Virus record (IMG/VR): IMGVR_UViG_3300047334_000219 | Location: 1 to 45,835 of that record | Source: a virus | Strand: one strand, 5' to 3' | DNA: 45,835 nt | The notes under the pieces: generated by a model | The model's input: only the letters and a program-made list of their open reading frames with translations | The model's database searches: none | Told to the model about the DNA's origin: nothing | Part shown: piece after piece, positions 1 through 45,835 of the stretch | Numbering within the stretch: position 1 is the stretch's first letter | Layout of the letters: the number at the start of each line of letters is the position of its first letter | Position numbers and translations under genes: made by a program

Positions 1-137
1 CAGTTGAGACCAAGTCGCACCATCTGCTGACGTAGAAAAGACAACATTTCCGGAGGGGACTGAAGCCAGCGGCCCCGATACTGGGGCAACAGCAGAAGCA
101 CTAGCGTTTAGCTGCATACGCAGCCATATTCCTGTGG
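1..137. repeat. Direct terminal repeat of the contig (left copy)
   Basis: Bases 1-137 match 45699-45835 in the same orientation with one difference (T at 127, G at 45825). The repeat lies inside a protein-coding frame that continues in phase from one end to the other, so it is best read as the overlap of a circular assembly and not as the physical ends of the virion DNA. The mismatch changes an isoleucine codon ATA to ATC, which is silent. True termini cannot be placed from this. Confidence 0.9.
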
Positions 138-2550
138 TCGCCGAGGGATTTAGTGAAGGTACCGTGACCGTGCTTGCAACGTACTGAGCAGTTCCAGCCG
201 CATTTTCCCAATAGCAGATAAGTTTACCGTTAGTGTCAAGATTGTATTGCCACTCGGAATTGGAAGCATTGCCGCCCGCGTCCAAGAACTTGGAAACAAG
301 GAACACGCCCCCAGAAACGCCGCTAACATAGCTGCTCAGGTTGACCCAGATTGATACATCAAGGTATCCGTCTGTGACATCATTGGTCGTAAACGAAGTA
401 CAAGATGAGTTATAATTTCTGGCTCCGGGCAGGTTAAGGTAATGGATTGGTCCAGTTCCAGCCGCGGCTGTCGTGGCACTAACTTCTGCACTCATCAAGC
501 TTATGCCTGGTGTCGCGCCATTCAGAGCGACTGCTTCAAAATAGTAGGTAGTTGCGGTGCTCAATCCTGTGATGAGATACGGAAACTTGACGTTAGTTGC
601 GATAAGAGCTTCAGCGCCCGAAGACAGGGAGCCGTAGATGTTATAGCCCGTGATGGCCGAACCATTATTTGATGGAGCAGCGCCGGCGAAGTTGATTAGG
701 ATAGAGGTCGACGAAATCGGCGTAGCAACGATCACCGGAGCGTCTGGAGCGGCTGCTGACGCTGGGTTCTTCCAGGTTACCGACCGCACTTCACCCGCCG
801 TTAGAGTGAGACTTGTCGTCGCGCCGGCCGACTGCTGATCCTTGATTGTGACTGTCTGAGAGGCGGAACTGGAGTTATATATCACAGTTACGACGGAGCT
901 GTCCGGGTTTAGGAAGCTGACCGTCTGCACATCAGATCCTCCACGGCCGACCACGCCGAAAGTGGTTGAATTCACGCGCACGGCTCCAGCTTTAACCAGG
1001 GAAGAGATTTGCGCGAGTGCGTAGTACTGCGGAGTCAAGCTAACCGCGCCTGTCGTGCTGATGTTAGCAACAGGCTGAAGGTTGTCCGCCGGCCCGGGCT
1101 GACCGCTGGAGTCGAGGGCCAAGTTCCACATTAGGAGGGAAGACGAGCCGTAATACGGGGACGCAATCATATCGTCGCCCATGAACGCGTGCCAGTTGGT
1201 GGCGAAGGCCGCAGACCCCACTGCTGCGCTGCCAGCGCAATGCTCGGTGTGCAGGATAAGCTTACCCGATGCGGCGTAGGGTGCCATCTCGGCCATCTGC
1301 GAAGCGTTTCCGTCGTACGCATGGTAGGCTGCGCCCGCGAAGGCGGCAGCACCAGCCGCGCCACCCGTGGTGAAGGGGTAAAGTGACAGAGACTCGCTAT
1401 TCTGAACTGTGTCTCCCCAGGAGGTGTCGCCAGACAAGAGCATTGTTGTAATACCAGCGGCGGAAAAAGCCGCAGCTACGGCCTCCCCTAAGGCATTGAT
1501 GTCGATGCCGTTGAAGCGGCAACCAGGATAACCAGTCGGGTTGAAATTAGGCTCGTTTTGCAGCGTAGAGTAGTCGGAATACCGCCCAATTTGCGCAAAC
1601 AAAAACTGCTGATACTTAACGAAATAATTAGCATACTCCGTATTGTTCGCTGAGTTTTGGATGTAGTATACGGAGTTTGTAGTGTTGACAAGCGTCTTGG
1701 TCGTCTTGAAGTATGGCGGAGGCGACCAAGGCGCAACAACGATCTTGAGTGAAGGATTAATCGAGAGAACCAGATTTAGAATTGGGATTATGTTGGTCAA
1801 ATCTTGTGAAAACGAGATCGACGCTAGGCCATCGTCTGTCGTAGAATTGTCGTAGACCGAAAAGGCGTTGTTCGCCGCGCCCGTGCCATTGACGTTTCGG
1901 ATGGTGTAATCACAGTCTCCCATCGGCAAGCGGACAAAGCCGAATCCATCGGCGCCGAAGCGGGCCTGCAGGAAGGCTGTCCTCTGGGCCAGCGTCATAT
2001 TGTTCATCAGGACGTAGCAGGCGGAGTCGGTTAGGGCCGCACCCGCGCCAAGCCAAGTCTGATGCTGCGTGGATGTGTCGACCAGTATTTCCTTAGCGCC
2101 TGTGGTGCCCGATCCAGCCGCAAAGGGCGTCACAGCAGTCGGGGCGAGAAGGGCCGTCGTGAAGTCTTGGGTTGTCCTTAAAGACGTGGGCGGGATTAGA
2201 CTAGAGGCGCCTACAGCCCCCGTCGTCGGCGCAGCGCTCGCCACGCTCCCGGAGGCGTTCGTCGCCGTCTCGATATACATGAGCGTGTGGCCCAGATCGG
2301 CTGAGACGGGCGTGTAAGACGTCGTCGTCGCCCCGCTGATCGGCGCGCCGGTGTCGGCGTAAAACCATTGGCGGGTGATCGTGGGTGAGCCGGTATAGGT
2401 TCCAGGCGTGGCGACGACCGGCGCGCCGACCACGGGAGACGACGCGCTTAAGGTCGGCGCGCTGACTACGGTCGGCGGCGGCAAAAGCGTACCGCCAACT
2501 GCGACAGCATCCCCCATGGCCAAGCCTTGTCCTGTTGAGATCGGGGGCAT
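1..2550 (-). CDS. Tailspike with GH30 glycoside hydrolase domain (N-terminal 850 codons; continues at 45698)
   Basis: ATG at 2550 opens a frame without stops to base 1; it resumes at 45698 and ends at the TAG at 45435-45437, giving 937 aa. Upstream GGTGAG is a plausible ribosome site, 5 bases after the previous stop. Visible domains: an Ig-like fold (about 27-115); a GH30-type TIM barrel (about 150-590) with LGAGAALTDS, VRLPMGDCDYTIR and APWSPPPYFKTT; a fibronectin III-like domain (about 601-690, starting PDAPVIV); then a LamG-like sandwich. Likely catalytic residues are Glu333 in LQNEPNF (acid/base) and Glu436 in LHTEHC (nucleophile). Their 103-residue spacing is close to the 105 of human glucocerebrosidase (E235/E340). 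The setting downstream of the capsid genes suggests a virion depolymerase for a surface or biofilm polysaccharide. The sugar specificity cannot be told; GH30 covers glucosyl, xylosyl, galactosyl and fucosyl linkages. Confidence 0.85.
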   Translation of the reverse strand, partial: MPPISTGQGLAMGDAVAVGGTLLPPPTVVSAPTLSASSPVVGAPVVATPGTYTGSPTITRQWFYADTGAPISGATTTSYTPVSADLGHTLMYIETATNASGSVASAAPTTGAVGASSLIPPTSLRTTQDFTTALLAPTAVTPFAAGSGTTGAKEILVDTSTQHQTWLGAGAALTDSACYVLMNNMTLAQRTAFLQARFGADGFGFVRLPMGDCDYTIRNVNGTGAANNAFSVYDNSTTDDGLASISFSQDLTNIIPILNLVLSINPSLKIVVAPWSPPPYFKTTKTLVNTTNSVYYIQNSANNTEYANYFVKYQQFLFAQIGRYSDYSTLQNEPNFNPTGYPGCRFNGIDINALGEAVAAAFSAAGITTMLLSGDTSWGDTVQNSESLSLYPFTTGGAAGAAAFAGAAYHAYDGNASQMAEMAPYAASGKLILHTEHCAGSAAVGSAAFATNWHAFMGDDMIASPYYGSSSLLMWNLALDSSGQPGPADNLQPVANISTTGAVSLTPQYYALAQISSLVKAGAVRVNSTTFGVVGRGGSDVQTVSFLNPDSSVVTVIYNSSSASQTVTIKDQQSAGATTSLTLTAGEVRSVTWKNPASAAAPDAPVIVATPISSTSILINFAGAAPSNNGSAITGYNIYGSLSSGAEALIATNVKFPYLITGLSTATTYYFEAVALNGATPGISLMSAEVSATTAAAGTGPIHYLNLPGARNYNSSCTSFTTNDVTDGYLDVSIWVNLSSYVSGVSGGVFLVSKFLDAGGNASNSEWQYNLDTNGKLICYWENAAGTAQYVASTVTVPSLNPSATTGIWLRMQLNASASAVAPVSGPLASVPSGNVVFSTSADGATWSQL

Positions 2551-2554
2551 CGGC

Positions 2555-3037
2555 TCAGCTCACCAGCTTGGAGGTTATCGTTACGGAGTTCGAACCGGAA
2601 TTCAGCAAACGCACGCTGGCGCCCGCTGCGCCAGCGAAGATCACGACTCCCTGCATACCAGAAGCCGTCACGGGCGAGCCCACGGTCTGCCATGTCGTCC
2701 CGTCCGGACCAAGCACTTGGAGCGTGACGCTCGGCGACGTGCCTGAGAGGATGTAGGACCAGCCGTAAGTGGCGGATATTGAAACGGTGACCGGCGTAGA
2801 GTTGCCACCGGCTGGAATAACTTGAGAAGTAGCTAAAGTGTATGTTTGCTGAAGTCCGCTGCTGCCACTTGTGCATAGATTTCCGTATTGATCTGTAACT
2901 AGCGGACTGTTAGGCCCGAGCGGAACAGTATTTGTTCCGCACTTTGTTTGCGAAACAGCAGACTGCGCCCTCACACCTTCATGGGGTAGAAGGGCTAAAG
3001 CCAAGATACCACATAAAAGTGCAAGGGCTTTTTTCAC
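2555..3037 (-). CDS. Exported-looking 160-aa protein before the tailspike
   Basis: GTG at 3037, preceded by AAAGG about 8 bases upstream, is the only good start. Residues 1-25 form a classical Sec signal peptide: MKK, a hydrophobic run of Leu/Ala, and a likely signal peptidase I site after VRA. Two cysteines follow (in TKCGT and GNLCTS). The rest is Ser/Thr/Gly/Val-rich and beta-strand-like, resembling carbohydrate-binding or decoration folds. It sits between two head-region genes and the GH30 tailspike with 4-base gaps, so it is probably co-translated with them. A signal peptide on a protein in a structural cluster is unusual; it might coat the cell envelope or be a virion protein with a hydrophobic N-terminus. 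I do not recognise a family. Confidence 0.75.
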   Translation of the reverse strand: MKKALALLCGILALALLPHEGVRAQSAVSQTKCGTNTVPLGPNSPLVTDQYGNLCTSGSSGLQQTYTLATSQVIPAGGNSTPVTVSISATYGWSYILSGTSPSVTLQVLGPDGTTWQTVGSPVTASGMQGVVIFAGAAGASVRLLNSGSNSVTITSKLVS

Positions 3038-3041
3038 AAGT

Positions 3042-3422
3042 CTAGCCTTTCTTCACGGTAGGAACGGATACGACTTTCACTTGCGGAACCGTTCCGCCGT
3101 CGGTCAGCCCGGCTTCCGGCCGATCCGCCGTAATCTCGGCGAGGGATTTACCTCGCCGATCTTCCGCGTCGGGAGAGGAAACCACAGTTGGCTGAGGCGA
3201 CTGCACAATCGCGTTGGCTTCGCCCACGGTTCTTGGAAGAAGATCCAGTGGAACTATTCCGGCATCGGGATTGTTTTTGTAGTAACTTTCCCGAGCCTCC
3301 ATTCCCGAATCATCCAGTGGGTCGAAGTGAGGGCCAAATGGCCCTTCGTAGTCGATCACCGTGCCGGCTTCGTAAAGCTTCGGGGCGATGAAAGTTGCAG
3401 TTAGAAGTCGATACCGAGGCAT
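3042..3422 (-). CDS. Hypothetical head-region protein, 126 aa
   Basis: Starts at the ATG at 3422 and lies 9 bases after the cement protein gene. The first half (MPRYRLLTATFIAPKLYEAG) looks folded and has a tidy Pro/Gly/Asp-rich loop with PFGPHFDPLDD; the second half is low-complexity and charged, ending in KKG. Short proteins with this kind of start accompany Bbp16/Bbp17-like capsid modules in other podoviruses, so a minor head or head-tail joining role is possible. No catalytic motif is visible. Confidence 0.7.
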   Translation of the reverse strand: MPRYRLLTATFIAPKLYEAGTVIDYEGPFGPHFDPLDDSGMEARESYYKNNPDAGIVPLDLLPRTVGEANAIVQSPQPTVVSSPDAEDRRGKSLAEITADRPEAGLTDGGTVPQVKVVSVPTVKKG

Positions 3423-3431
3423 GTAATTTCC

Positions 3432-3875
3432 CTACGCCGCTGTGTAGTTTTTGGGATACGGGTAACGAACTTCCCGATCGGCACTGAGGTAGGAGTACAG
3501 CGCGCCGGCAGTCATCGGGCCGGTAGCGATTGTGTAGTATAATCGAAGATACCGGCCGGGAACCGTGCCGTTCGCTAACTGATTCAACGGAACTGGATAG
3601 CGCATGATTGCCGCGCCAACAGTCAACGCGGCAACTGGATACGCCTCGGGGGAAGTTAAAATAGTATACCAGTTCACGTTGTCGGTTGAGGTTTGGAGAG
3701 AAATCGTCAGTGTTGCTGCACCCGCGGCCGTAAACGCGGTAGTTACATCGCAGTGAAGCTCGATAGGATACATCGCCCCGAGGTCGGTATTGGCGAGAAG
3801 ATCAATCGTGTTGGTACTGGCGGCACTAACCGTAAGTGCCACGTTCTGGTCAAAGATAAGTTGATTGTCGATCAT
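3432..3875 (-). CDS. Bbp16-like capsid cement (decoration) protein
   Basis: 147 aa from ATG 3875. The sequence is rich in Thr, Ala, Val and aromatic residues with the beta-sandwich look of the Bordetella phage Bbp16 family. The N-terminus MIDNQLIFDQNVALT and the centre (ISLQTSTDNVNWYTI) fit that family; the second half has a beta-rich LRLYYTIATGPMTAGALYSYL. It lies directly downstream of the major capsid gene, the usual position of capsid-stabilising proteins in BPP-1-like phages. It probably sits on the outer capsid surface. Assignment is from motif resemblance and gene order. Confidence 0.7.
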   Translation of the reverse strand: MIDNQLIFDQNVALTVSAASTNTIDLLANTDLGAMYPIELHCDVTTAFTAAGAATLTISLQTSTDNVNWYTILTSPEAYPVAALTVGAAIMRYPVPLNQLANGTVPGRYLRLYYTIATGPMTAGALYSYLSADREVRYPYPKNYTAA

Positions 3876-3888
3876 AGTTGCGCCCTCC

Positions 3889-4932
3889 TTAAACGACGCG
3901 AGATTCGGTTGTCAGAAGAGCGTCAACAATTCGGATAGGAATGCCGCGGAATGTAGTTACGGCTTCGCCATCCCATTCTTCCATCTTGAGCAAGACGTTA
4001 GTCTTGTTCATGGCTTGGAGATCGAGATAGGTTGCGATCGTGCGGTTGACGTAGATCGCACTTCGGCCCATGACGATCCGGTCGACCGAATCGGTAGAGT
4101 CCTGAACCGGACCAACGCCCGAGGGCTGCACGGGCATCCGCTGTGTCATGCGGACTAGCGTGTTGATCAAGTTCGCAGCCGATCCGCCGTTTAGCAACGT
4201 GACGTCGATGTTCGCGGCCCGAACCGCGAAACGCCAGTCGTGAATGGCCAGACCGATTTTCCACTCAAGCCAGGTACGATACGCAAGGAACTCGTATCCG
4301 TTTGCATCAGTTGCTGGGAGAATTCCCATGTCTTGGTGACGCATCCCGGCTTGAGTTCCCTTGGGGAATATAGCATGAATTTGCTTCGGCCCCCAAGTCA
4401 CAAGCCACATCGAGGCATTCGTAGAACCAGTTCCGCCGCAGTCAATCACGTTGTTGGCGATCGTACTCGTCGCCGGGTTCACAGTATTGTAGATGTTGGC
4501 GAAACCCGTGAACTGCGTCGGATCGGTAGCCTTATTTCCGTAGAACAGATCGCTGGCGACTTTCTGCGAAAGCCCTTCCATGTGCATCGCATCTTCTTGA
4601 TAGCGAAGTTCGGAAAGATTTCCGCCAAGTTCGGCCAGGGACTTGTCAAGCTTTGACCAGTCAGCGTACTCAACGCAAGTCGCGGTCTGCTTGACAACGC
4701 CGCCCTGGGTTGCAGGCACACCGGCGTTGTACAAGCGCCGAGTCGGGGTCGGAAGCTCAACAACTTGCGTGTATTCATACACGTTGCCAGCTTGACATTC
4801 CATCGTGAGGAGATCTTCGACGATGCCGTTTTTCTGGGAGAGAAGATCTACAAGAGTCGCAATCTTCCCAGTCGTGTCGTGGCGCAGGGCCCACTGCGCG
4901 TAGGTGAACAGGCCAGGAGTGATAGTTGCCAT
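3889..4932 (-). CDS. Major capsid protein
   Basis: 347 aa from ATG 4932. Length, position after a scaffold-like gene, and residues such as MATITPGLFTYAQWALRHD, ADWSKLDKSLAELGG and GNKATDPTQFTGF match the major capsid protein (Bbp17-like) of BPP-1-type podoviruses, which have an HK97-type fold. The C-terminal part has RFRGIPI-like strand logic (VTTFRGIPIRIVDALL) common to these coats. It forms the icosahedral shell together with the cement protein encoded next. No protease gene is evident nearby, so maturation cleavage is uncertain. Confidence 0.85.
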   Translation of the reverse strand: MATITPGLFTYAQWALRHDTTGKIATLVDLLSQKNGIVEDLLTMECQAGNVYEYTQVVELPTPTRRLYNAGVPATQGGVVKQTATCVEYADWSKLDKSLAELGGNLSELRYQEDAMHMEGLSQKVASDLFYGNKATDPTQFTGFANIYNTVNPATSTIANNVIDCGGTGSTNASMWLVTWGPKQIHAIFPKGTQAGMRHQDMGILPATDANGYEFLAYRTWLEWKIGLAIHDWRFAVRAANIDVTLLNGGSAANLINTLVRMTQRMPVQPSGVGPVQDSTDSVDRIVMGRSAIYVNRTIATYLDLQAMNKTNVLLKMEEWDGEAVTTFRGIPIRIVDALLTTESRVV

Positions 4933-4941
4933 AGATTATCC

Positions 4942-5601
4942 TTAGTTAACTGTGTCTGGGTATAGCGCTGAAGCGGGAGTCGCTGCGCGCCGCGGGCCAG
5001 GGCTGATTCCGGGTTTGATGCTTCCTTCGGAAAGGGCCTGAGCCATTTTGTAAATCATCTTAACAATAGCGGGATTATTCCCCGCCCCGGTGAGTTCGAA
5101 AGCGCTGCGCGCTTCCTTACTTCCGTACTCGTCTAGCGCCCGTCCGAGAGTTGTCTGCACTTCAGCCGAACGAGAACCGCCGATTTCAGGATCGGACTTT
5201 ATTTCGTCCCCCCACTTCGTGACCATCTCGTTAAAGGCTTTTGCGTTTGACTCTGCGAACGCGGCGACTGCCGCTTCGACTTGCTTTGTCCCAAGGTCAA
5301 AAAGAGCCTGAGCTTTGTCCGCGGGAAATCCTGCTTCAGCAAGTGTTCCTTTGAACGCATCGAGAAGTTCTTTGTTTTCGGCAAAGCCTTCAGGAATTTT
5401 AATTTCATACGATGCCGGATCGATCGGTGGCTTTGCCGCAGGTTCCGCGGCAGTAGCTTCGGCAGGGGCAGAATCTACCGAGGCTTCAACCGCAGGTGCT
5501 TCAGTCGAAACTACTGCCGCAGGCGCAGTGTCCGCAGGAAACAGTGCAGCAGCGCCCGAAGGCGCTTCACTCGAAGAGTTCGCCGTTGTCGTATCCGTCA
5601 T
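4942..5601 (-). CDS. Capsid scaffolding protein
   Basis: 219 aa from ATG 5601, overlapping the previous gene by 35 bases. The first 75 residues are Ala/Ser/Pro/Glu-rich and disordered. Next comes an acidic amphipathic segment (YEIKIPEGFAENKELLDAFK, then AGFPADKAQALFDLGTKQVE) typical of phage scaffolding proteins, and a long helical region. A basic C-terminus (GPRRAATPAS) could contact the coat protein. The position immediately before the major capsid gene supports an internal assembly scaffold lost or removed from mature heads. No protease motif is visible. Confidence 0.8.
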   Translation of the reverse strand: MTDTTTANSSSEAPSGAAALFPADTAPAAVVSTEAPAVEASVDSAPAEATAAEPAAKPPIDPASYEIKIPEGFAENKELLDAFKGTLAEAGFPADKAQALFDLGTKQVEAAVAAFAESNAKAFNEMVTKWGDEIKSDPEIGGSRSAEVQTTLGRALDEYGSKEARSAFELTGAGNNPAIVKMIYKMAQALSEGSIKPGISPGPRRAATPASALYPDTVN

Positions 5602-5920
5602 CTTTTTCTTCCTTAATCTCGACCGAAGCGTTCTCGGTCATTGCTTTAACAAATTGTTGAGCCGCCCAGCGCTGAATGTCGGAAAAAAGCCGGAGGCCGA
5701 AGCTTCGCTTTCCTTCCGAGAAGCACATAATTCCAAAGGCGCCTGGTGAGGTTGTGAAAGACTGGGAAAATATACCCGCATCGGCAAGTTCTAGCCAAAG
5801 GTATCTCCTCCCGTCTTTGGTAGACATCAATGACTGAATGACGACCCTTCGGGTTGTCTCGTCCTGCTTCGCCTGGCGTTCGGCTTTTTCAACGTCTTTC
5901 CTCGAACCAGCGTTTGCCAT
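5567..5920 (-). CDS. Bbp19-like protein between portal and scaffold
   Basis: 117 aa. ATG at 5920 overlaps the portal stop as ATGA, so translation is probably coupled. The segment RRVVIQSLMSTKDGRRYLW and the later SFGLRLFSDIQRW agree with the Bbp19-type family found next to portals in BPP-1-like phages. The C-terminus is very acidic (EIKEEKDDGYDNGELFE) and extends into the overlap with the scaffold gene. Its function is unknown; association with the portal or with packaging initiation is an inference from gene order. Confidence 0.7.
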   Translation of the reverse strand: MANAGSRKDVEKAERQAKQDETTRRVVIQSLMSTKDGRRYLWLELADAGIFSQSFTTSPGAFGIMCFSEGKRSFGLRLFSDIQRWAAQQFVKAMTENASVEIKEEKDDGYDNGELFE

Positions 5921-7629
5921 CAGGATGCTCCCAACATGGTTTCGAGGGCATTTTTCCCGCCGCCGACTTGTGTTTGGGACAGGCCTTGAGCCCCCTGTAC
6001 TGCGGCCATTGAGGCCTGTTGCATCGCTTGCGCCTGCTGCTGTTTCACTTTCGCAGCACGGATAGCTGCAACTTGCTTCGCGTTGCGGAGAATTCTCGGT
6101 GATACGTTGAGCAGGTCTGCGTACTCATCGACGGTTTCATCTTCGTCAAGGTTGTCAAGGACATCTGGAATAGCTCCCGCGATATTGCCAATGAAGGCGA
6201 CAAGGCGTTCAATTGCCGCTGTGCTTGCGGCGCGTTGCTGCTCGGCAAGCATGGAAACGTATTGCACGTTAATAGTCATGCGCTGAATTTCGGGCGGCGG
6301 GGGCGGAATTAATCCCCGACGAAGCATAATCGCGTAGGTCCGCTCGATGATGGGATCGAGGACTTCGTTTTCAAACCGCTCGATTACCGGACCAAGTTGG
6401 ATTAGCTTTTCTTCCCGCCGAGCGTCGATCTCGGTCGCGGTGCGTACAGTGTCGAGCTGGGAAATCATCATGAAGAGATCGACGAAGAGGACGGAATTAA
6501 CCCGAGCCTGGACTTCCTTGATATCTAAGGTAAGTTCTTGAATCTTGGGATCAACCTGAAACGCGGGTTTAAACCCAGCAGTGGATAGGTCCGAAACGTA
6601 GTTAATAGCGCCAGGGAGAATGGAATTAGGTTCATTCCGCATGTTAACCGAGGCGTTCATCGGCGGCCGAACCATCTTTTCAATGGCCTCGGCCTTGCGT
6701 CGTTGCTCTATCTGCAACTGCCGAACCGCCGGAAGCGCGTCCATGCCAGGGCTCCGGCCGTAGGGATCGTTAGAGGTAATGTCCCAACGTGCCCCGAAGA
6801 AGAACTTCTCGTGAAAACCGCTGACGCAGATAATGTTGCTTCCGGCAGATGTCTGTTCCCAATAGACTTCCCGAAAGGCGAACTTCCGCGGAACGGGCGT
6901 ACCGAGGTTATTCGTTCCGCCTTCCCAGACGTCCGTGTTAGGCTCCATGGCGTGGCAGATTACTACTTCCCGTTCGAGCGAACTTCCGCCGGACTTATAC
7001 GACTGCTGAATCGACTCAGAAAGGTTTTTAATCCCGAACTGTTCCACGGCCTGAGCTATGTTGAGAGTGTACTCCCGGTACATCGTGTTCACGTCCATTC
7101 GGGCTGAAGCTCCGAAGAAGAACTCGCCAAGGCATGGGTTGTAAAACCGGATTACCGTTTCGGAATCTTCGTACTCGATCAGTGCCGCGGAACCGAACAC
7201 TACGTTGTCGTGGTAGTGCACAGCGAGGGCCTGGTAGAAGTTCGAACCGGAAAATACCCGTTGCATTCGGCGTTCGACTTCGGCAAGCCAATTACGAACA
7301 GGGCCAAAGGACACATCCGGCATTCCCTCGATCCCGAGGCGGAACCAAGGCTTCGTTGGGGATGTGAGTCCCGACATCATCCCACTGGCGCATGTACGCG
7401 CGGCGACAACGCCAGTTTCGTCTACTATTGCCTGGTTGATCTGTGAACCACGGTTAAGTTGGTTCGGCGTGACAAACCACTTGTACCGCCGGGGAAGAAA
7501 CATCTCTGCAAGTTGCGCCCAATGCGCCCAGAAGGATATGCGGTAGCTCCGCATTCCGCCCATACGGGATTGGCAAGCCTGCGCCAGCGCAATCTGCATA
7601 GGTTTCGGAAGCGAAGCTCCTGATATCAT
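5920..7629 (-). CDS. Portal / head-tail connector protein
   Basis: 569 aa from ATG 7629. It fits the T7 gp8-type head-tail connecting family (PF12236-like): an N-terminal helical stretch with YRISFWAHWAQLAEMFLPRR, the region ASGMMSGLTSPTKPWFRL, the segment ALIEYEDSETVIRFYN, and a Gln/Ala-rich C-terminal tail. Twelve copies would form the DNA channel at the capsid vertex, binding terminase during packaging and tail tubular proteins afterwards. It follows the terminase genes with one small gene between, and overlaps that gene's stop as ATGA. Confidence 0.88.
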   Translation of the reverse strand: MISGASLPKPMQIALAQACQSRMGGMRSYRISFWAHWAQLAEMFLPRRYKWFVTPNQLNRGSQINQAIVDETGVVAARTCASGMMSGLTSPTKPWFRLGIEGMPDVSFGPVRNWLAEVERRMQRVFSGSNFYQALAVHYHDNVVFGSAALIEYEDSETVIRFYNPCLGEFFFGASARMDVNTMYREYTLNIAQAVEQFGIKNLSESIQQSYKSGGSSLEREVVICHAMEPNTDVWEGGTNNLGTPVPRKFAFREVYWEQTSAGSNIICVSGFHEKFFFGARWDITSNDPYGRSPGMDALPAVRQLQIEQRRKAEAIEKMVRPPMNASVNMRNEPNSILPGAINYVSDLSTAGFKPAFQVDPKIQELTLDIKEVQARVNSVLFVDLFMMISQLDTVRTATEIDARREEKLIQLGPVIERFENEVLDPIIERTYAIMLRRGLIPPPPPEIQRMTINVQYVSMLAEQQRAASTAAIERLVAFIGNIAGAIPDVLDNLDEDETVDEYADLLNVSPRILRNAKQVAAIRAAKVKQQQAQAMQQASMAAVQGAQGLSQTQVGGGKNALETMLGAS

Positions 7630-7814
7630 TGGCCGAGAAGCGTCTTCGGCGCGACAGTGGCCGGGGCCGCAGCCATCTTCGCGCCGGTGAGGAATGTTCC
7701 GCCGAGATTGCCTGTGCTGTTCGCTTTCATAGACATGTTGGTCTGGGAAAGCGTCGAAGACAGACTCGGCGGTGTCGGTGCGGCAGGAGCCGAAGGCGGT
7801 TTACCAAATCCCAT
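7626..7814 (-). CDS. Small hypothetical protein between terminase and portal, 62 aa
   Basis: ATG 7814 lies 3 bases after the terminase stop, and the stop overlaps the portal start as ATGA, so it is sandwiched in a tight operon and very likely translated. It is Pro/Ala/Ser/Thr-rich with an N-terminal PPSAPAAPTPPSLSS and is probably disordered. Short Pro-rich proteins at this position occur in other podoviruses, but I know no function. Confidence 0.65.
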   Translation of the reverse strand: MGFGKPPSAPAAPTPPSLSSTLSQTNMSMKANSTGNLGGTFLTGAKMAAAPATVAPKTLLGQ

Positions 7815-7817
7815 GAT

Positions 7818-9353: not shown

Positions 9354-9891
9354 CTCTGAGCCTCCGCGTTGCGGCTTGGAGGCGGGAACCGAGGTCGGCG
9401 GATACGGATACGGAGACGCTGCGGGAGACCGGCGCATGGCCGGTGCGGTCTGCGGTGAGTTTCACGATCTCGATCACGGTTGAGGTCGAAATCGGATCAT
9501 CTTCGTTTTCCAGTCGATCATGAAGCTCCGTAACCGCGGCGATAGAAAGAAGCGCAGCGCGTTCTTGGAACTCAGCAAACGCGGCGTCTTTAACGTCGCG
9601 GTAGTGGGAAAGGAGTTCCTTGAACGCCGGGTCGGACTGGAGAATCGACACGGTACTTGGTGTATACCCGGTGAAAGCCGAAGCCTCGCCCGGAGTCATC
9701 CCGTTGGCCAGGGCTCTTGCCAGTGCGTGATGCCGGTCCCGGAGTTTGACTCGGGAAGGAGCCTTCGTCCCGCGCTCGCTTGCCAAAAGCGCGAGGTCTG
9801 ACTCTTCCATATCGCGGACAACCTCGACCGCGAGCGCCGCCGAGCGCCTACCGACAAGCCGCGTTCCGCCGATGTCAAGCTCCGGGACCAT
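9337..9891 (-). CDS. Terminase small subunit-like protein
   Basis: 184 aa from ATG 9891; a GTG at 9915 is an alternative start. A helix-turn-helix region (HALARALANGMTPGEASAFT, then GYTPSTVSIL) covers roughly residues 55-90. A long helical oligomerisation segment follows (VKDAAFAEFQERAALLSIAAV), and the C-terminal tail is basic (RLQAATRRLRD). This is the usual plan of terminase small subunits, which recognise the packaging site. It is the first gene of the late minus-strand arm and overlaps the large subunit by 17 bases. Residue-level family assignment is not certain. Confidence 0.8.
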   Translation of the reverse strand: MVPELDIGGTRLVGRRSAALAVEVVRDMEESDLALLASERGTKAPSRVKLRDRHHALARALANGMTPGEASAFTGYTPSTVSILQSDPAFKELLSHYRDVKDAAFAEFQERAALLSIAAVTELHDRLENEDDPISTSTVIEIVKLTADRTGHAPVSRSVSVSVSADLGSRLQAATRRLRDAGES

Positions 9892-9943
9892 GCTTCGCAA
9901 CGTACACCAGCTCACCGCCGTCGCAAAGTTCGCCGCGAACCCG

Positions 9944-9973
9944 CCATCTCAATCACGATGCTATCGAGCCATG
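9944..9973 (+). promoter_or_regulatory. CCATC-25-CCAT element, copy R1
   Basis: Fits the pattern CCATCTYRATC, 8 variable bases, ATCGAKCCAT, with exactly 25 bases between the two CCAT starts (9944 and 9969). It lies in the gap before the first early gene and upstream of the late arm. Confidence 0.55.
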
Positions 9974-29635: not shown

Positions 29636-30107
29636 GGTGTCCGATCCTCGCTACAAATTTAGACTGATTTGCCCAAGCGGGCGGTTCGGAAACTTCAGGA
29701 TTATAATATAAAACCGTATCGTTTGTCAACAGGTTATAAGAACTTCCACTATAAGTTCTGGAAGTAACAGCATTCCAAGAAGATAGGCAATCGTTCCATT
29801 GATCTGAATCCAAGGCTTGAGTGTATAGTTTCTGCGCCTCTTCCAAAGCTTCTTCAAAATTAAATACATTCTGTTCATATTTTCCATTTTCCATTGCAAA
29901 CCAAAAACCAGAGAACTGAAACTTTCGCAGTACTGTTCCTTGAACTGTTCCATCAGAAGAATATTTTAAAGTCATCCTGTTAAGTATTACTCGAGCAACT
30001 CCAGCTTTCCCGTCAATAGGTTCTCCTCTTGCTTCGTCCCAAATACAAGTTGCGGCTAGTTCTTCATCAGTCATAATGGTCATGGCTTGGCGCTCTTTAT
30101 CGGTCAC
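29616..30107 (-). CDS. Endolysin, SleB/Hydrolase_2-like
   Basis: 163 aa from GTG 30107 with GGAGG upstream; ATG at MTIMTDEEL is another possibility. The pattern AATCIWDEARGEPIDGKAGV with the catalytic Glu, VARVILNRM, and later KFQFSGFW matches cell-wall hydrolases of the SleB (PF07486) family, which cleave peptidoglycan glycan strands. The C-terminus (HHEFFRG) resembles the family's terminal His-Phe ending. It overlaps the tail fibre end and the holin candidate start, forming the lysis cassette. Confidence 0.85.
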   Translation of the reverse strand: MTDKERQAMTIMTDEELAATCIWDEARGEPIDGKAGVARVILNRMTLKYSSDGTVQGTVLRKFQFSGFWFAMENGKYEQNVFNFEEALEEAQKLYTQALDSDQWNDCLSSWNAVTSRTYSGSSYNLLTNDTVLYYNPEVSEPPAWANQSKFVARIGHHEFFRG

Positions 30108-33100
30108 GTTTGCCTCCGGAATGGAGCCTTCGCTTTTGTAGGGAGGCGATCAGCCGGGCGTCCCGTGCCTCGCGCTGTTTGAGATCAGCGATTTCGGCTT
30201 GCTGCTTTTTGACGATGTCATGAAGCTCCTGGATCGCCCGGGTGAGCTTCCAGATGTCTGGCTGATCGACGGACAACATGGTTCCGGCCGCGTTCTCTTT
30301 GTCGGCGGGAATCAAGTCGTCTTCGACCTCGTGAACCATCTCAGGATGAATCTTCTGAAGCTTTTGTGCGATCGGCCCCACCGTGATTTCGCCCGTCGCG
30401 TCGATCTTATAGCGGTCAATGGGCAAGCTGTTGATGTAGGCCAGCTCGTCGCCATCCAATCCGTAATCAGTTTTGAGCCGCGCATCCGAAGAGCACGACC
30501 AATTGAACCCCGACGTCGAAGGCGTGCCGTTGCAGACCGCGGCGGAATTGGTCGCCGACAGGATCGCTCCCGAAAGCGTGCTGTCACCTGCGGTGAAAGC
30601 GCTGTCCCACATCGTGCCGGAGTAGCTTGCTACCAAGCCCGTAGAGGTTTGCGGCGTGTAAAAGTGCGTGTGGGAGTTACCGACCCGGTACACCGTCGTG
30701 TCTTGGGTGTAGTCCGCTATCCCGGCGTCGCTTATGCTGGACGCGCCTCCGGGATTGTTACCCATCATAATGCCCGCATGATATATGGTGCCTGCGCTGG
30801 AGTTGACGAGGTACAAGGCAGCCAGGTTAGGGTATACCCCCGCGCTCGAATTGCCGACGCCGTCGATGAGGAAGCCGCTAACTTGCGTTGCGCAGCCAGT
30901 GTTGGGGGCCCAAGGGACGCCAGGATCGCAACTAGCGTTTCCGGCCACCATTTCCATAACTTGGCCGTTCTTCGCGCCCGGCTGGAACATCGTGGCCAGC
31001 GACATGCCCCAACAAGTCGGTGCGCCCGACAAGCAATTGTTGGCGACGTACAGCGATCCGCCCTCGGCCCCAGACGTGCTGTTGGCGTTGGTAGTCGTGC
31101 TTATCATCGAGCCCCATTGGGACTTATTCCCCCCGGCTACGGTCGACGATATCTGGCAAGAGGCCGCTGTCGGACTGTTGCTGTCAAAGTTGACGGGGCA
31201 GCTCAAAGTGTTTGTTGATCCTGTCTCGTAAATGGGCTCCGGAAAGGTGTCCTTGGTCGAGCCCAAATACGCAATTTGGGTTGGCGTCCCCGTGCCGCTA
31301 GGCTGTTGATAAAAAGCAAACCCAGAAGGGTCGCCCAGATTAGTCTCGTTGAGAAAATCCACCTCAGCCTGGCCGCCGGTTGCGTTCCAGGCAACGCCCA
31401 ATCCCCCTGCGGAAGTGCCCGCCGGAAAAGTGGAAGAGTTGCTTGAACCCAAATACTGCCAGCCGCTTCCGTAGAAGCTCTCCAACGTGCCGTTAACTGG
31501 GCCGATGAAATTAGCGCCTGCAAGCGCGGCATATCCGGTAGTAACGTTGCAAGAAGACTGCAGGCTGAAGACGGTGCCAGAAAGTTGAAGGCAACTTCCG
31601 GCCGAGTACGTAGCGCTGGAATTGGCTAATGGCGTTCCGTTTACCAGCGGCGTATAATTAAAGTTAGCCTGGCCGTTGAATATATAACCTCCGTTGCAGT
31701 TGAAAGTTAAAGAGCCTAAAAGGCCAGAAGTTGATCCGCCAGAAGGCGAAATAACGCAATCATTAACGCCGTTTCCAGAGGTGTAAAAAACAATAAAAGG
31801 ACTATTTACAGCGTTTTTATTTCCCAAATAAAGGGAAGCGCCAGATGCCTTTAACTGTATTGATCCATTTCCACCGATGATGTAATTATAATTAGGCGCA
31901 CCCGTTCCGGTACCAACTGGACCATTAATATTATTGGTCGATGAATTCGTAAAATACACCGTGTTATTAATTGATCCGCCGCTGACCGGCAAATAGTTGG
32001 CCGTTAAGCCACTGTAACTGGCTAAGCCGCCTCCCGAGTCCACGGAGTTTCCCAGAGCGGCCAAGACGCCCGAGCCCGTGGATGTGCCGGCTAATGCACC
32101 CCCACTATTGATTTGAATTTGGCCGTTAAGACCTGCGGCTCCGCTTCCACCGCAGCTTCCCCCTACCAAGCACGGCGTACCGCCGATCGCTGTGTCTACT
32201 TGAGAAGCCGTCAGCCCCGTAGCTGCTGAAATGTTTATGGTGGGCGTGCCGATTGCGCCCCCATAAGTCACCAAACCTCCAGCGGTGTTTACGGGGTTCG
32301 CCGCCGCTGTGAGCACGCCAGTTCCTGTGCCCATGAGGCCTGACAAGGGTGCTGCGCTGGCCGTTGTGGCCGTGGCCGCATTGCCTGTGACGTTGATGCC
32401 CCACGTACCGCTTGCGCCTGAGCCTGTGGGCGTCGGCGGCGTGTAGCCAAGAGCAGTTATTACTTCCGAAGACTGAAGTCCCGTTGCGTTAGTTAAATTA
32501 ATGGCCGAAGGTGTTCCCAGGTTAGGTGTAATTAAATTGGGACTGTTTAACGTGGCCCCAGAAGCTAGAACTGCATTTCCAGTTCCAGTTGTTCCAATCT
32601 CTCCCAGAAGCCCTCCAGCATTGACTTCAATATTTCCAGAAGTTCCTCCCTGAATACTTGTAGACCCTACAGAAATAGAACTTGCAGAAGCGGTTGAACC
32701 TTCGTATTGAAGTTGCTGAATTTGAAGTTCCAGCCAATCCGCAATTTGCTCTATCGTGTGCGGATAGAAGGATTGATTTAAAACCGCAGTTGGCTGTGTG
32801 TAAGGAACAGCTCGAGTTATAGTGATAGTGTTTCCGCTAGCCAAAGGCACACCAAGAGGTGCGTATGTTACAATTCCTCCCGTTGCGTTTCCAACACCAG
32901 AAATTGTGTAGGCTGTAGAAGATAGATTAGTAACTATGCCAGTTGCGGTATTTGTAACTTGAACAACTACTGCGGGAGTAGTTGTTCCTGCTTGATATGG
33001 AATCAAGAAATTATAAGAAAACGAAGTTGTAACTCCATTTCCTTGAAGGGTAGTTGTATACGCACTCGTGGCTACAGTTGCTTTCGCAGGTGCACAATAC

Positions 33101-33165
33101 CCCAAAACCAAATACACCAAAGCCAAAGCTGGACAGAGTAAAAAAGCTTTAAAAGATTTCTTCAT
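30097..33165 (-). CDS. Tail fibre with T7-like N-terminus and S74 intramolecular chaperone
   Basis: 1022 aa from ATG 33165, overlapping the previous stop (ATGA). After a hydrophobic start (MKKSFKAFLLCPALALVYLV; SPase-like site near AKA), residues about 35-160 resemble the T7 tail fibre N-terminal domain (LQGNGVTTSFSYNFLIPYQ, FYPHTIEQIADWLELQIQQL). A long Gly/Ser/Thr/Asn-rich shaft follows. The C-terminal 131 residues are an S74 peptidase-type chaperone; self-cleavage is expected at SSDARLK (Ser-Asp, near 893), and a coiled coil (IQELHDIVKKQQAEIADLKQ) ends it. The receptor-binding tip lies before the cut. The N-terminal signal-like helix is unusual for a fibre. Confidence 0.88.
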   Translation of the reverse strand: MKKSFKAFLLCPALALVYLVLGYCAPAKATVATSAYTTTLQGNGVTTSFSYNFLIPYQAGTTTPAVVVQVTNTATGIVTNLSSTAYTISGVGNATGGIVTYAPLGVPLASGNTITITRAVPYTQPTAVLNQSFYPHTIEQIADWLELQIQQLQYEGSTASASSISVGSTSIQGGTSGNIEVNAGGLLGEIGTTGTGNAVLASGATLNSPNLITPNLGTPSAINLTNATGLQSSEVITALGYTPPTPTGSGASGTWGINVTGNAATATTASAAPLSGLMGTGTGVLTAAANPVNTAGGLVTYGGAIGTPTINISAATGLTASQVDTAIGGTPCLVGGSCGGSGAAGLNGQIQINSGGALAGTSTGSGVLAALGNSVDSGGGLASYSGLTANYLPVSGGSINNTVYFTNSSTNNINGPVGTGTGAPNYNYIIGGNGSIQLKASGASLYLGNKNAVNSPFIVFYTSGNGVNDCVISPSGGSTSGLLGSLTFNCNGGYIFNGQANFNYTPLVNGTPLANSSATYSAGSCLQLSGTVFSLQSSCNVTTGYAALAGANFIGPVNGTLESFYGSGWQYLGSSNSSTFPAGTSAGGLGVAWNATGGQAEVDFLNETNLGDPSGFAFYQQPSGTGTPTQIAYLGSTKDTFPEPIYETGSTNTLSCPVNFDSNSPTAASCQISSTVAGGNKSQWGSMISTTTNANSTSGAEGGSLYVANNCLSGAPTCWGMSLATMFQPGAKNGQVMEMVAGNASCDPGVPWAPNTGCATQVSGFLIDGVGNSSAGVYPNLAALYLVNSSAGTIYHAGIMMGNNPGGASSISDAGIADYTQDTTVYRVGNSHTHFYTPQTSTGLVASYSGTMWDSAFTAGDSTLSGAILSATNSAAVCNGTPSTSGFNWSCSSDARLKTDYGLDGDELAYINSLPIDRYKIDATGEITVGPIAQKLQKIHPEMVHEVEDDLIPADKENAAGTMLSVDQPDIWKLTRAIQELHDIVKKQQAEIADLKQREARDARLIASLQKRRLHSGGKRDR

Positions 33166-41158: not shown

Positions 41159-43721
41159 CAAGCATAAACTCCGGCACGATTCCAAGAATGTTAGAGGGAA
41201 CAGGGTAATCTACTTGAATACACATTTGGCCTTCAACAGTCCACTGGGAAGCTATGTTTGTTCTAAGTTCTCCAGAATACAATGGGTTTGGTGTAGTGTA
41301 CGGAACTTGAGTAAAGCCTTTCATTTCAGTCAGTGTGTTGAAATTCGGACCTATTTTGAGGCCGAGAGTTTTATCTACAGCTACAGTCATTGCAACTATA
41401 CTTTTTCTCTTCCCTTGGATCGTAGGTTCGCCCGCGTCAAGTTTCAAAGTTTGTAGTTGACACTGGTACGGAAGGCCCACAATTATTTTAGTTCCACTTT
41501 GCGGAAAAGCAACAACCCCGTTTAAAGGAACAACTTGATTTGGTTGTGGAACGCCATCGACTATAGCTGAAACTGTAAGTCCGGCAAGCCACAGGACAGT
41601 TGCTGTGTTTGTTGGAGTCCCGTAGCACCAGCTTCCAGAGTACTGTGGGATCGGAAGATTATTCGGATCGTTTGGCGTTGTTTCTAAAATTGGACTTAAA
41701 ACTATTCCTTCCGCTTTGAAGGCAGAATTAAACGCAGTTATTTGAATTTGCCCACCACCGGTCCAAATTATGTCGCCAACTAAAGCTGAAGAAAATAACG
41801 CAGCAACAGAAAGCATTGTTACATTTCCTGTTGCTGCGGAAACAAGCAGTGTTGTATCTGGATAAGTTAATGGAGCTTGATAGGCGCAGTCAAGGCACCA
41901 TGCGTCTTGAATATAGTTCACCAATCGATTAGCAAACCGCTCTACGTAGTAAATAAAGTTTCCATTAACTAAGCGTTGAACAAGTAAGTAAACTGCGTTT
42001 ACATTGCCCTCGGGAATTGTGCAGATAGATATAAACTGACCATTTGTGTCGTGATGAGCCCAGCCGAATACTTCTTGCTCGGGGACATACGTGAGAGAAA
42101 GAAGTATTCCATCGTTGCGGATAGCCCAGATAATTCTGTGAGGTTCTTCTGCGTAGGCCCATTCGTTTATTTGATAATTTATGAAAAGGTGAGAGGACAG
42201 TGTACTCCTGTCGTAACCATAGTAATTTTGCAGATAGAAGTTATACGACAGGTCCCGAACGATATTTCCACGGGCTTGGATGTATAGAATATCGTAGTTG
42301 ACGACAATCGGCGGGACGTCATTTGCCCCACTCGACGCTTGGGGAAGGGCTGATATGGATGCAGGGGTGATCGCAGCAACTTGGTTTCCTCCCGAGATCA
42401 AAAATGCTCCACCAGAAGTAAAAGCAACAAGGCCTGTGGACATTGGAACAAGAGCTTTTATATAGTTGACCTGTCTTCCGGCAAGAGAAGCAGTTATTGC
42501 ATCTGAGTCAAGAACGACTAGGGAAGTATCGAAATTGTTAAAGTTTCCAGTCTGGGAAAAGAATAATGACTCCGGTGCGTTTTCTGTAGCGCCATAAACA
42601 AGACGCTGCTGGAAGTAGGTGCAAACGGCCGGATTATTTCCGCTTATCGGGGACAGAGTTGCAGCGAAAGTACCGGTAGGTGCAGTTACATTTACATTGG
42701 TATAGCCAGATCCTCCAGTCAACAACACTGCGCCTGAAGCTTGGTTATTAGATCTGTTTATCAATGCGTACCCGGAAGCCCCGCTGCCATCTCCGGTAAA
42801 GGTGAAATACTCTTGATAACCGCTGCCTCCAGCTCCTGGAGTAAGAACACTTATTGAAGTCACTGCTCCCGAAGCAAAAGGGTTTTGGAAAGTCGGAGGA
42901 GTCTGACTAAAATCAGGACCAATATTATTATCTGTAAATGTCGTAGATATGCTTTGGCCGATATATCCAAAAACAGTTCCGAGTGTACCAGAAGTACTGG
43001 GCGTCGGGCCATTTTTGTAAATGTTGTAGTAACTTACTGCCTCGCTTGGAGCTGTCCAAGTCAGGTTAATAACCTTGTTGTTAGTTGCGTCAAGAATAGC
43101 ACTTCCGGTATAACCTTGATTGGAAGGAATACTTTCTTCTGTACCGTCGAGACTCACGGCGGTTACTACGTAACCATATATGTACAAAGGCGAACCGCTT
43201 GTGTTTGTAGGAACACAAGTTACGTTTGTCGGAGCATCTATTTTTGCACCAAACGTAACCGGCGTGATTTGAAATTGATTCGCTGAAATTCTTGAAAGAT
43301 TATACGGAGGATAGTTCGGATGCGTCAGCGTCATTACATCGGCCGACTGTACAAATTTTAAAAGAGGAAGATCCGCAGCAGCGTAAGGCGAAGCAAGCTG
43401 GTACACACCTCCACTGTTGTTTGCTACAGCGGCGCCTTCGTAATAGAACTGAATAAAGTTATTTCCAAAAAGCATAGCGTATGCGGCAACTGTTGAAACA
43501 ATAAATGGAATGAGCCTTGGGGGAGTTCCTGCAGTTACTAGCGAAGAAGGTGTGTCCACATATTCCGTCCCAGGCCGCGACATAGCCCCGCCGCGAAAAT
43601 CAACGAAATAGTTACGGAGAAGCGCCGCTCCTGTCTTGTACTGCGCAAGATCAACTCGCGCGTACAGCGTCGGTGCAAGTTCCCCGGAAGCAAAACTTGT
43701 CTGGTTAAGCCGTTCGGCCAT
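41142..43721 (-). CDS. Tail tubular protein B (gp12-like)
   Basis: 859 aa. ATG 43721 (MAERLNQTSFASGELAPTLY) is chosen because it overlaps the tail tubular A stop as TAATG; longer starts lie inside that gene. The first 60 residues (ARVDLAQYKTGAALLRNYFV, GGAMSRPGTEYV) are the family's highly conserved start. It forms the tail nozzle. The middle carries an FnIII-like segment (NLTWTAPSEAVSYYNIYKN), and Ser/Gly/Thr-rich loops. The length is normal for large gp12 homologues. Confidence 0.88.
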   Translation of the reverse strand: MAERLNQTSFASGELAPTLYARVDLAQYKTGAALLRNYFVDFRGGAMSRPGTEYVDTPSSLVTAGTPPRLIPFIVSTVAAYAMLFGNNFIQFYYEGAAVANNSGGVYQLASPYAAADLPLLKFVQSADVMTLTHPNYPPYNLSRISANQFQITPVTFGAKIDAPTNVTCVPTNTSGSPLYIYGYVVTAVSLDGTEESIPSNQGYTGSAILDATNNKVINLTWTAPSEAVSYYNIYKNGPTPSTSGTLGTVFGYIGQSISTTFTDNNIGPDFSQTPPTFQNPFASGAVTSISVLTPGAGGSGYQEYFTFTGDGSGASGYALINRSNNQASGAVLLTGGSGYTNVNVTAPTGTFAATLSPISGNNPAVCTYFQQRLVYGATENAPESLFFSQTGNFNNFDTSLVVLDSDAITASLAGRQVNYIKALVPMSTGLVAFTSGGAFLISGGNQVAAITPASISALPQASSGANDVPPIVVNYDILYIQARGNIVRDLSYNFYLQNYYGYDRSTLSSHLFINYQINEWAYAEEPHRIIWAIRNDGILLSLTYVPEQEVFGWAHHDTNGQFISICTIPEGNVNAVYLLVQRLVNGNFIYYVERFANRLVNYIQDAWCLDCAYQAPLTYPDTTLLVSAATGNVTMLSVAALFSSALVGDIIWTGGGQIQITAFNSAFKAEGIVLSPILETTPNDPNNLPIPQYSGSWCYGTPTNTATVLWLAGLTVSAIVDGVPQPNQVVPLNGVVAFPQSGTKIIVGLPYQCQLQTLKLDAGEPTIQGKRKSIVAMTVAVDKTLGLKIGPNFNTLTEMKGFTQVPYTTPNPLYSGELRTNIASQWTVEGQMCIQVDYPVPSNILGIVPEFMLGDTGR

Positions 43722-44476
43722 TAGTCGCCCCAGGAAGAGTTGTCGTAACCGGAATACCAATCGCCGAAGCCGGACCATGGGCCGCCGAGGCCGTAAGTTG
43801 CGCTGGCTGGATCGCCGCGAGTTGCTATCCAGTCAGGAACATGATCGACAGTTGGCCGGGCTTCGTTCCCGTCCATGGCCCGAGCATCGGTAATGTACTG
43901 CATAGCGACTTGTTCAAGACTCGTCTTCATTCCCACGTTACCAGTAAGGGGAATTACAAGCCTTGCCGCAAGCGCAGCGACCAAAGCTTCATAGAAAGCA
44001 TCATCGAACTGATCTACGTTTTGAATATCGGCAGTGTATACTCCAAGAGCATTCCATACGTTTGTAAGAAGAACTATAGTTCCGTTAGGCACATCGTTTG
44101 CTTTTAGAAATCTGTTCTTCCGGGAAGGCATCCAACCTCGGTCGAAGGGCCAGTCGGAAACATTCGGTTGTCCCGTGTTAGTAGCAAATACTGGTTGGTG
44201 TAGAACATATCGAAATTTAAGACAGTCAGAAGGGTACTGATACTTAAATGGCCAAGGGTAGATAGACGTGTTTTCGAAAAGAGTGCCAAGGAGGGAAAGG
44301 GATACTTGCTCCCGGGCGAAGCCCCAAGGCGCAGCTCGAAGAAGTTTCTTTCTAATCCGATCGTAATGTATCGTACATTGCGCAACTTCTACTGACGCTT
44401 CATCAGTACTTTGCACAGTTGCACGAGCACCACATTCACTTAGCGCTCCATTCCAAATGTCTATTACCGAGGCCAT
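43721..44476 (-). CDS. Tail tubular protein A (gp11-like)
   Basis: 251 aa from ATG 44476. The start (VIDIWNGALSECGARATVQS), with RIRKKLLRAAPWGFAREQVS and a Trp/Pro-rich segment (IYPWPFKYQYPSDCLKFRYV), fits gp11-type proteins that join portal and nozzle. Slightly larger than T7 gp11. Translation is coupled to the next gene by a TAATG overlap. Confidence 0.88.
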   Translation of the reverse strand: MASVIDIWNGALSECGARATVQSTDEASVEVAQCTIHYDRIRKKLLRAAPWGFAREQVSLSLLGTLFENTSIYPWPFKYQYPSDCLKFRYVLHQPVFATNTGQPNVSDWPFDRGWMPSRKNRFLKANDVPNGTIVLLTNVWNALGVYTADIQNVDQFDDAFYEALVAALAARLVIPLTGNVGMKTSLEQVAMQYITDARAMDGNEARPTVDHVPDWIATRGDPASATYGLGGPWSGFGDWYSGYDNSSWGD

Positions 44477-45204: not shown

Positions 45205-45435
45205 CTATTGCGCAACTGCAATTACTATGGATTGGTTGGGTGTCAGCACACCGGTCCAGCTTGATGTCTCGCTGAGCGCCTTGACGGGTGTCGTGGGGCT
45301 GGCGCCTGCGGGATTGTAGACGTTGGAGTTTATGTTCTTGCCCGACCACGAGACGGTCGGTGGCGCGGGCGATGCAGCGAAGCATGGTGGGTTCCTAAGT
45401 TGCTTATGGAATAGGCCGCTGAATTGCCTACGCAC
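45205..45435 (-). CDS. Small protein between tailspike and DUF3309-like gene, 76 aa
   Basis: The frame is supported by GC-rich third codon positions. GTG 45435 overlaps the tailspike stop (TAGTG), suggesting coupled translation; TTG 45463 is another start. The sequence PAPPTVSWSGKNINSNVYNP and ALSETSSWTGVLTPNQSIVI looks like a short beta-rich tail or cement protein fragment. It has no recognised family and could be a remnant of a longer fibre gene. Confidence 0.45.
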   Translation of the reverse strand: MRRQFSGLFHKQLRNPPCFAASPAPPTVSWSGKNINSNVYNPAGASPTTPVKALSETSSWTGVLTPNQSIVIAVAQ

Positions 45436-45835
45436 TATGCAATCGTAGCTTGATATTGGTACCAACTGTTCGGAGTCGCCGCTGTGTCTTTGAATGAGGT
45501 GCCTGATGGTGAGGTGGGTTGAAGAGTGTAATCTGGGTTTGCCAAAATTACCCCTGCGCTGTTAAGCAATATCATCTTATACACTTTACCCGTCAGGAAC
45601 CCATTGGATGTGCTTGTGCCATTGGAGCCAATGGTAAGCGACGGAGCAGACGTGCCGAGCGCCTTTATACCGCCGGCAGTGAAGGCGACCGACGCCCCCA
45701 GTTGAGACCAAGTCGCACCATCTGCTGACGTAGAAAAGACAACATTTCCGGAGGGGACTGAAGCCAGCGGCCCCGATACTGGGGCAACAGCAGAAGCACT
45801 AGCGTTTAGCTGCATACGCAGCCAGATTCCTGTGG
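45435..45835 (-). CDS. GH30 tailspike, C-terminal part (continues from base 1; 45699-45835 duplicates 1-137)
   Basis: Continuation in phase of the frame from 2550-1 through the contig join, ending with TAG at 45435-45437. It encodes the end of a LamG-like beta-sandwich (VFSTSADGATWSQLGASVAF, LTGKVYKMILLNSAGVIL). LamG-like folds often bind glycans or trimerise spikes. Only the 45435-45698 part is unique; the remainder duplicates the window's start. Confidence 0.8.
   Translation of the reverse strand, partial: TGIWLRMQLNASASAVAPVSGPLASVPSGNVVFSTSADGATWSQLGASVAFTAGGIKALGTSAPSLTIGSNGTSTSNGFLTGKVYKMILLNSAGVILANPDYTLQPTSPSGTSFKDTAATPNSWYQYQATIA
45699..45835. repeat. Direct terminal repeat of the contig (right copy)
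   Basis: Matches 1-137 except G at 45825 (T at 127). The reading frame of the tailspike crosses it in phase. Best explained as circular-assembly overlap with one variable site. Confidence 0.9.

Follow-up and report, generated by a model that had tools for sequence, protein, structure and literature searches.

A joined reading frame between head and tail genes

The window, by which we mean the whole 45,835-nucleotide stretch of IMG/VR record IMGVR_UViG_3300047334_000219 analysed here, comes from a podovirus of the BPP-1/epsilon15 type, whose tail tubular protein B is 32-37% identical to its counterparts in phages of that type (tblastn against annotated phages); a search of viral contigs with the window's tail tubular protein gave no match. 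The genes of interest lie on the minus strand in the order terminase, portal (phrog_332), protease, major capsid protein (3889..4932; phrog_212, E=1e-58), a Bbp16-like protein in a capsid cement context (3432..3875; Pfam PF21190, E=3e-24), a phrog_590 protein, a protein of 160 aa that starts with a Sec-type signal peptide (2555..3037) and, directly downstream of the latter, a gene for a protein of glycoside hydrolase family 30 (GH30). This is followed on the same strand by small genes, the tail adaptor or tail tubular A-like protein (43721..44476; phrog_394, E=7e-42), tail tubular B, internal virion proteins, a tail fibre and a cell-wall hydrolase. The GH30 gene sits between the capsid and cement genes on one side and the tail adaptor on the other. 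In BPP-1 only about 75 bp separate the last head gene from tail tubular A, and in Ab31 about 45 bp; given this narrow gap, the GH30 cassette is an insertion into the structural module. Some relatives of the window phage carry one or a few small genes in the same gap.

The GH30 frame opens with an ATG and runs in reverse without a stop through 850 codons (2550..1, minus strand) off the left end of the contig. Positions 1-137 of the window are a second copy of 45699..45835, identical at 136 of 137 positions, and the sole mismatch, at position 127 and 11 bp from the contig end, exchanges ATA for ATC, both of which encode isoleucine. When the ends are joined at this overlap, the frame continues at 45698 with residues 851-937 and a stop codon at 45435 (45435..45698, minus strand), so that a single ORF of 937 aa results with either copy of the overlap, as the sequence-only reading had proposed. 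The circular join, which that reading had named as a point on which its claim could fall, holds when examined by homology, as two independent homologues from Sphingomonadaceae cross the junction at residue 850/851 intact: a 1106-aa relative in Sphingomonas genome G987 spans residues 93-910 unbroken (39.7% over 841, E=2e-164), and a 942-aa relative in Sphingomonadaceae genome G371 matches residues 698-929 continuously (E=2e-27). As these alignments are unbroken, the join is real so far as the protein product is concerned. An assembly artefact, with the real left-end gene stopping elsewhere, might be suspected from the shortness of the overlap and from a mismatch near its end, but collinearity with both homologues through the junction and the synonymous nature of the mismatch make this scarcely credible. 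The further suggestion that neither half alone would be called as a gene is overstated, because the open-ended 850-aa ORF contains the whole catalytic domain with both of its GH30 Pfam domains.

The canonical last structural position is occupied by another gene, which encodes a tail fibre or spike of 1022 aa (30097..33165, minus strand) with a docking domain of the epsilon15-tailspike/T7 type at residues 30-153 and a Peptidase_S74 chaperone. The GH30 protein lacks this N-terminal docking domain, and its gene does not follow the internal virion proteins as a tailspike gene would. Given the docking domain and the S74 chaperone on the 1022-aa protein, the GH30 protein is not the canonical tailspike of this phage. 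Ahead of the docking domain, the tail fibre begins with a textbook Sec signal peptide, MKKSFKAFLLCPALALVYLVLGYCAPAKA (33075-33165, minus strand), which was unexpected; the extension looks genuine, because its start codon overlaps the upstream stop. A similar signal-like extension in the tailspike homologues of Salmonella phage SPC32H was discarded, as the match runs into non-coding DNA.

Several other features of the region were recorded. The interval between GH30 and the tail adaptor (44641-45200, minus strand) holds a very hydrophobic short ORF that resembles DUF3309 by eye, and a protein with a coiled coil and a transmembrane segment that resembles a holin by eye. The GC content is about 0.54-0.59 in the part from terminase to GH30 (1-12000) and falls to mostly 0.45-0.50 over the tail region (28500-45000), with the shift lying just downstream of the GH30 gene, and a mosaic genome is suspected. 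Limnohabitans phage DC33 (L007, PQ492659.1) is filed under Inoviridae, yet it has the structural genes of a tailed podovirus.

Catalytic domain and flanking modules

Both GH30 domains of Pfam, the barrel (PF02055, E=9.5e-12) and GH30C (PF17189, E=3.8e-13), score above their cut-offs on the 937-aa protein, and all motifs quoted in the sequence-only reading are present. A sequence search of the PDB returned BT3312 as the best match (5ngk, 1.4e-33), followed by human glucocerebrosidase, GBA (1e-17 to 1e-18). The structure prediction that had been called for bears out the family assignment: AlphaFold, run with 42 sequences, gives a confident (beta/alpha)8 barrel with a beta-sandwich over residues ~150-598 (757..2103, minus strand), with 10-residue means of pLDDT mostly at 80-98 and weaker loops, while the overall mean is only 62 because the N-terminus and the C-terminal third are poorly predicted. 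Foldseek with the predicted structure placed 5ngl/5ngk first (E about 1e-31) and GBA next. The two glutamates that GH30 enzymes carry after strands 4 and 7 are present as Glu333 in QNEP (1552..1554, minus strand), the predicted acid/base, and Glu436 in HTEH (1243..1245, minus strand), the predicted nucleophile; they lie 103 residues apart and align with Glu238 and Glu339 of BT3312 (PMC5481569). The protein is most likely a retaining beta-glycosidase of GH30 (clan GH-A), as predicted from these matches.

The -1 subsite of BT3312, formed by Asp131, Trp179, Asn237, Glu238, Glu339 and Trp377 (PMC5481569), is kept in the window protein as D214, W275, N332, E333, E436 and W475. In the phmmer alignment the -2 subsite is not conserved, with Ala442 opposite Trp345 of BT3312, and no Cys pair matching the Cys393-Cys396 disulphide was found; the NCBIfam equivalog model for BT3312 (NF053856) scores 155.7 bits against a cut-off of 700. 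Given the lost -2 subsite and the score below the cut-off, the name of GH30 subfamily 3 (endo-beta-1,6-glucanase) is withheld, and the window protein is, as far as its sequence can tell, a GH30 enzyme whose chemistry is conserved and whose substrate is unpredictable. Glucosylceramide was considered as a substrate on account of the kinship with GBA and the glycolipids of sphingomonads, and put aside: sphingomonad glycolipids are alpha-linked, whereas GH30 enzymes cleave beta bonds.

Of the domains that had been read around the barrel, the Ig-like and the fibronectin type III-like ones stand, whereas the LamG-like one does not. The Ig-like domain at residues about 30-113 (2212..2463, minus strand) is 40-45% identical to standalone 113-aa ORFs from Sinorhizobium phage NV1.1.1 and Ochrobactrum phage vB_OspP_OH, which in both genomes come immediately after the major capsid gene, and is on this homology a candidate virion anchor; AlphaFold models residues 50-100 with a pLDDT of about 60-80. 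Its best profile match is the major tail protein family phrog_1407 and its best PDB match is a tail protein, and a weak Hoc-like match (E=0.0024) was seen for one of its homologues. The fibronectin type III-like domain at residues about 606-697 (460..735, minus strand) matches Pfam fn3 with E=1.2e-4, its 22.6 bits falling just below the cut-off of 25. For the C-terminal domain, neither Pfam nor a sequence search of the PDB gave a match, and the LamG-like label was dropped. Neither a signal peptide nor a beta-helix or S74 chaperone was found in the GH30 protein.

The 160-aa protein encoded directly upstream has a C-terminal beta domain homologous to a 143-aa ORF of contig L003 (E=3e-8), which lies upstream of an Ig-bearing protein of 1249 aa; this pair hints at other cargoes for the combination of a small upstream partner and an Ig protein. 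A GDS...HPS motif pair, possibly from an SGNH esterase, was read by eye in the 1249-aa protein (L003:5080-8829), and a profile search of that protein gave no match backing this reading. Genes for signal-peptide proteins are a recurrent neighbour immediately upstream of GH30 in phages (window 2555-3037, minus strand; L011:3816-4538 and 4526-5017; L108:2031-2639).

Relatives in phages and prophages

Profile searches covered 399 Sphingomonadaceae, 385 alphaproteobacterial and 295 Sphingomonas genomes, in samples that overlap, and GH30 genes of the phage type were found in genomes G001, G371, G987, G989, G1015 and G1033, the last of which has an E-value (2.7e-71) within the range of chromosomal hits and was assigned by its context and by the tree. 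A search of genome contigs with the single GH30 sequence gave no match; the same contigs queried with an alignment yielded 497 relatives, the closest of which, L043, is a prophage. Among viral contigs, scans with GH30 alignments returned only L011, an IMG/VR contig of another morphogenetic type, in which an 881-aa GH30 protein is encoded at the equivalent place, flanked by an SU10-type major capsid protein and an SU10-type adaptor, and is preceded by two signal-peptide proteins. A record that had looked like a further phage GH30 (MT836348.1, L004, 'Bacteriophage sp.') proved to be a Bacteroides-type chromosome fragment with SusC/D-like and dnaX-like genes.

In a maximum-likelihood tree, the window enzyme and those of L011, G371, G987, G989, G1015 and G1033 form one clade (100/100), apart from the sampled chromosomal GH30s of Sphingomonadaceae and from those of other bacteria; the copy of G001 (Sphingomonas sp. 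PAMC 26621), which is frameshifted and lies beside a transposase-like ORF, groups with the window, L011 and G371 in an earlier tree of 83 rows (99/87). Chromosomal GH30s of the sampled Sphingomonadaceae were rejected as donors, as they form a separate clade. Judging from this phylogeny, the window GH30 is one of a group of Sphingomonas phage enzymes that had not been recognised before, and the host of the window phage is probably a member of the Sphingomonadaceae, as every bacterial genome in which the clade was found comes from that family.

The closest relative, that of G987, carries at its N-terminus the spike-base domain of the gene transfer agent RcGTA (NF048002, E=2e-22, above cut-off; PDB 6tb9, chain of Rcc01079, E=6.8e-9), a domain that PHROGs labels 'tail fiber'. 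In RcGTA, Rcc01079 forms pentamers seated on the pentamers of the capsid, and it is through the spikes that the particle binds and attaches to the capsule (PMC7296036, PMC10218006). The window protein has no domain of the Rcc01079 family, and the GH30 proteins of L011, G371, G989 and G1015 have neither an Ig nor a spike-base domain. Given the Ig domain of the window protein and the spike base of G987, the same enzyme stands behind different N-terminal modules. In two siphovirus-type prophages, Ig-repeat proteins of 506 and 316 aa that begin with ALAPLSQTL are encoded immediately upstream of GH30 (L134:17078-18598 and L106:16928-17878) and may be separate anchors.

In G001, G989, G987, G1015 and G1033, genes for tape measure, tail hub and lysis accompany GH30 in the late region of a prophage, while the GH30 gene of G371 lies at a contig end in an apparent prophage remnant. 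This placement bears on whether the enzyme could instead be soluble, freed at lysis, or the product of an auxiliary metabolic gene, and in either case never part of the virion; it would then break down exopolysaccharide near the burst or provide nourishment for the host. Glycoside hydrolase genes, GH30 among them, have been reported as putative auxiliary metabolic genes of prophages (PMC10508911), the cassette neighbours encode signal-peptide proteins, including a GH5 in G371 and in G987, and the members without an Ig domain or spike base have no obvious anchor. However, no signal peptide is present on the GH30 protein, the gene lies in structural or late modules of the phages and prophages examined, and in one member the enzyme is fused to a spike base of the virion, all of which renders a soluble or metabolic role distinctly unlikely. 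The prophages of G371 and G987 both encode GH5 glycanases, and that of G987 (contig 34, L138) has three glycanases in all, namely an 883-aa GH5 after the tail hub, the spike-base GH30 and a signal-peptide GH5, together with an acyltransferase. The company of GH5 and acyltransferase fits exopolysaccharide as the target.

The sequence-only reading had taken the GH30 protein for a tailspike, that is, for a tail-borne spike or side fibre; it would then cut polysaccharide from the tail and be docked by protein contacts at the neck or tail. The gene adjoins the central tail hub in G1033, where it lies directly after the hub and before the endolysin, and it closes the late cluster in G001, G1015 and G989; because several siphovirus-type prophages place the gene at the end of the tail module, a tail location is conceivable for the family. 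In addition, Ig-like domains are frequent in tail proteins, being found in tail tubes, baseplates and fibres, and heads carry them too. Against a tail location for the window protein stand the recognised docking domain on another protein, the capsid-proximal gene, the lack of a beta-helix or S74 chaperone and the head-spike base of G987. We therefore do not retain the tailspike label, with the docking domain elsewhere and an Ig domain as candidate anchor, and regard attachment to the tail as unlikely, if well worth bearing in mind; the window GH30 protein is probably located on the head rather than the tail.

Proposed role and known counterparts

We infer that the GH30 protein is a virion-borne glycanase of exopolysaccharide or capsule, anchored by its Ig-like and most likely head-decoration module, and give this reading slightly better than even odds (a probability of about 0.52); the earlier idea of a virion-borne depolymerase is thus supported, with incorporation into the virion and activity as its inferred parts. 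This module, at the N-terminus, would hold the protein on the virion exterior, where the GH30 barrel, with E333 as acid/base and E436 as nucleophile, would cut a beta-linked polysaccharide of the host surface. The fibronectin type III-like and C-terminal beta domains may serve as a spacer and a probable glycan-binding module, and the loosened matrix would let the separate tail fibre (30097-33165) reach the outer membrane for final attachment. Head anchoring is proposed for the window phage and for G987. Here we speculate, more tentatively and at somewhat less than even odds, that sphingomonad phages carry a GH30 glycanase on the capsid by means of interchangeable head anchors, either an Ig decoration or a vertex spike base of the gene transfer agent type. 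If so, the head and not the tail would start the cutting of exopolysaccharide, and the arrangement would amount to an RcGTA head spike with enzymatic activity.

Phage depolymerases are usually sought among beta-helix tail proteins. In the literature searched, which took in only a minority of subscription papers, neither a phage depolymerase of family GH30 nor a glycanase mounted on a phage head turned up; nearest is the report of GH30 among putative prophage auxiliary metabolic genes cited above, and a GH30-like Foldseek match has been described for a middle domain in the adhesion devices of Ceduovirus, a lactococcal phage (PMC12474359). A GH30 clade specific to phages, whose virion anchors are exchangeable and include a head-spike base defined by cryo-EM, makes it a testable proposition that some phages bear glycanases on the head, and the clade may serve as a pointer to new enzymes against Sphingomonas exopolysaccharides. 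It also advises caution, in that an enzyme encoded in a structural module should not by default be called a 'tailspike' or an 'auxiliary metabolic gene'.

Among characterised enzymes, BT3312 (GH30_3, 5ngk/5ngl) is the best PDB match by both sequence and fold and shares the barrel, the beta-sandwich and the -1 subsite, whereas the window protein adds the Ig, fibronectin type III-like and C-terminal domains and a phage structural context. GBA (GH30_1) has the same fold and catalytic glutamate pair at a similar spacing, but its identity is about 20% and its lysosomal lipid substrate context is not transferable to the window protein. The enzymatic tailspikes of T7-like and epsilon15-like phages share the virion-borne depolymerization of polysaccharide, as proposed here for the window protein; theirs is a beta-helix with a docking domain, in contrast to a GH30 barrel that lacks such a domain and is encoded at another gene position. 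No enzymatic activity is known for the fibre of RcGTA. The head spike formed by the Rcc01079 base and the Rcc01080 fibre is a functional analogue, as its base domain recurs in G987 and as the spikes are head-mounted and interact with capsule; it differs in that its fibre binds the capsule, and in that the window protein has an Ig domain in place of the spike base. Hoc-type Ig modules on capsids, such as T4 Hoc, T5 pb10 and N4 gp17, are thought to mediate adhesion (PMC7602432) and share the Ig-like fold module with the window protein, the 113-aa homologues of which are encoded next to capsid genes; the Hoc-type decorations are, however, without a described enzymatic domain, whereas the Ig domain of the window protein, by homology a candidate capsid binder, precedes a GH30 enzyme.
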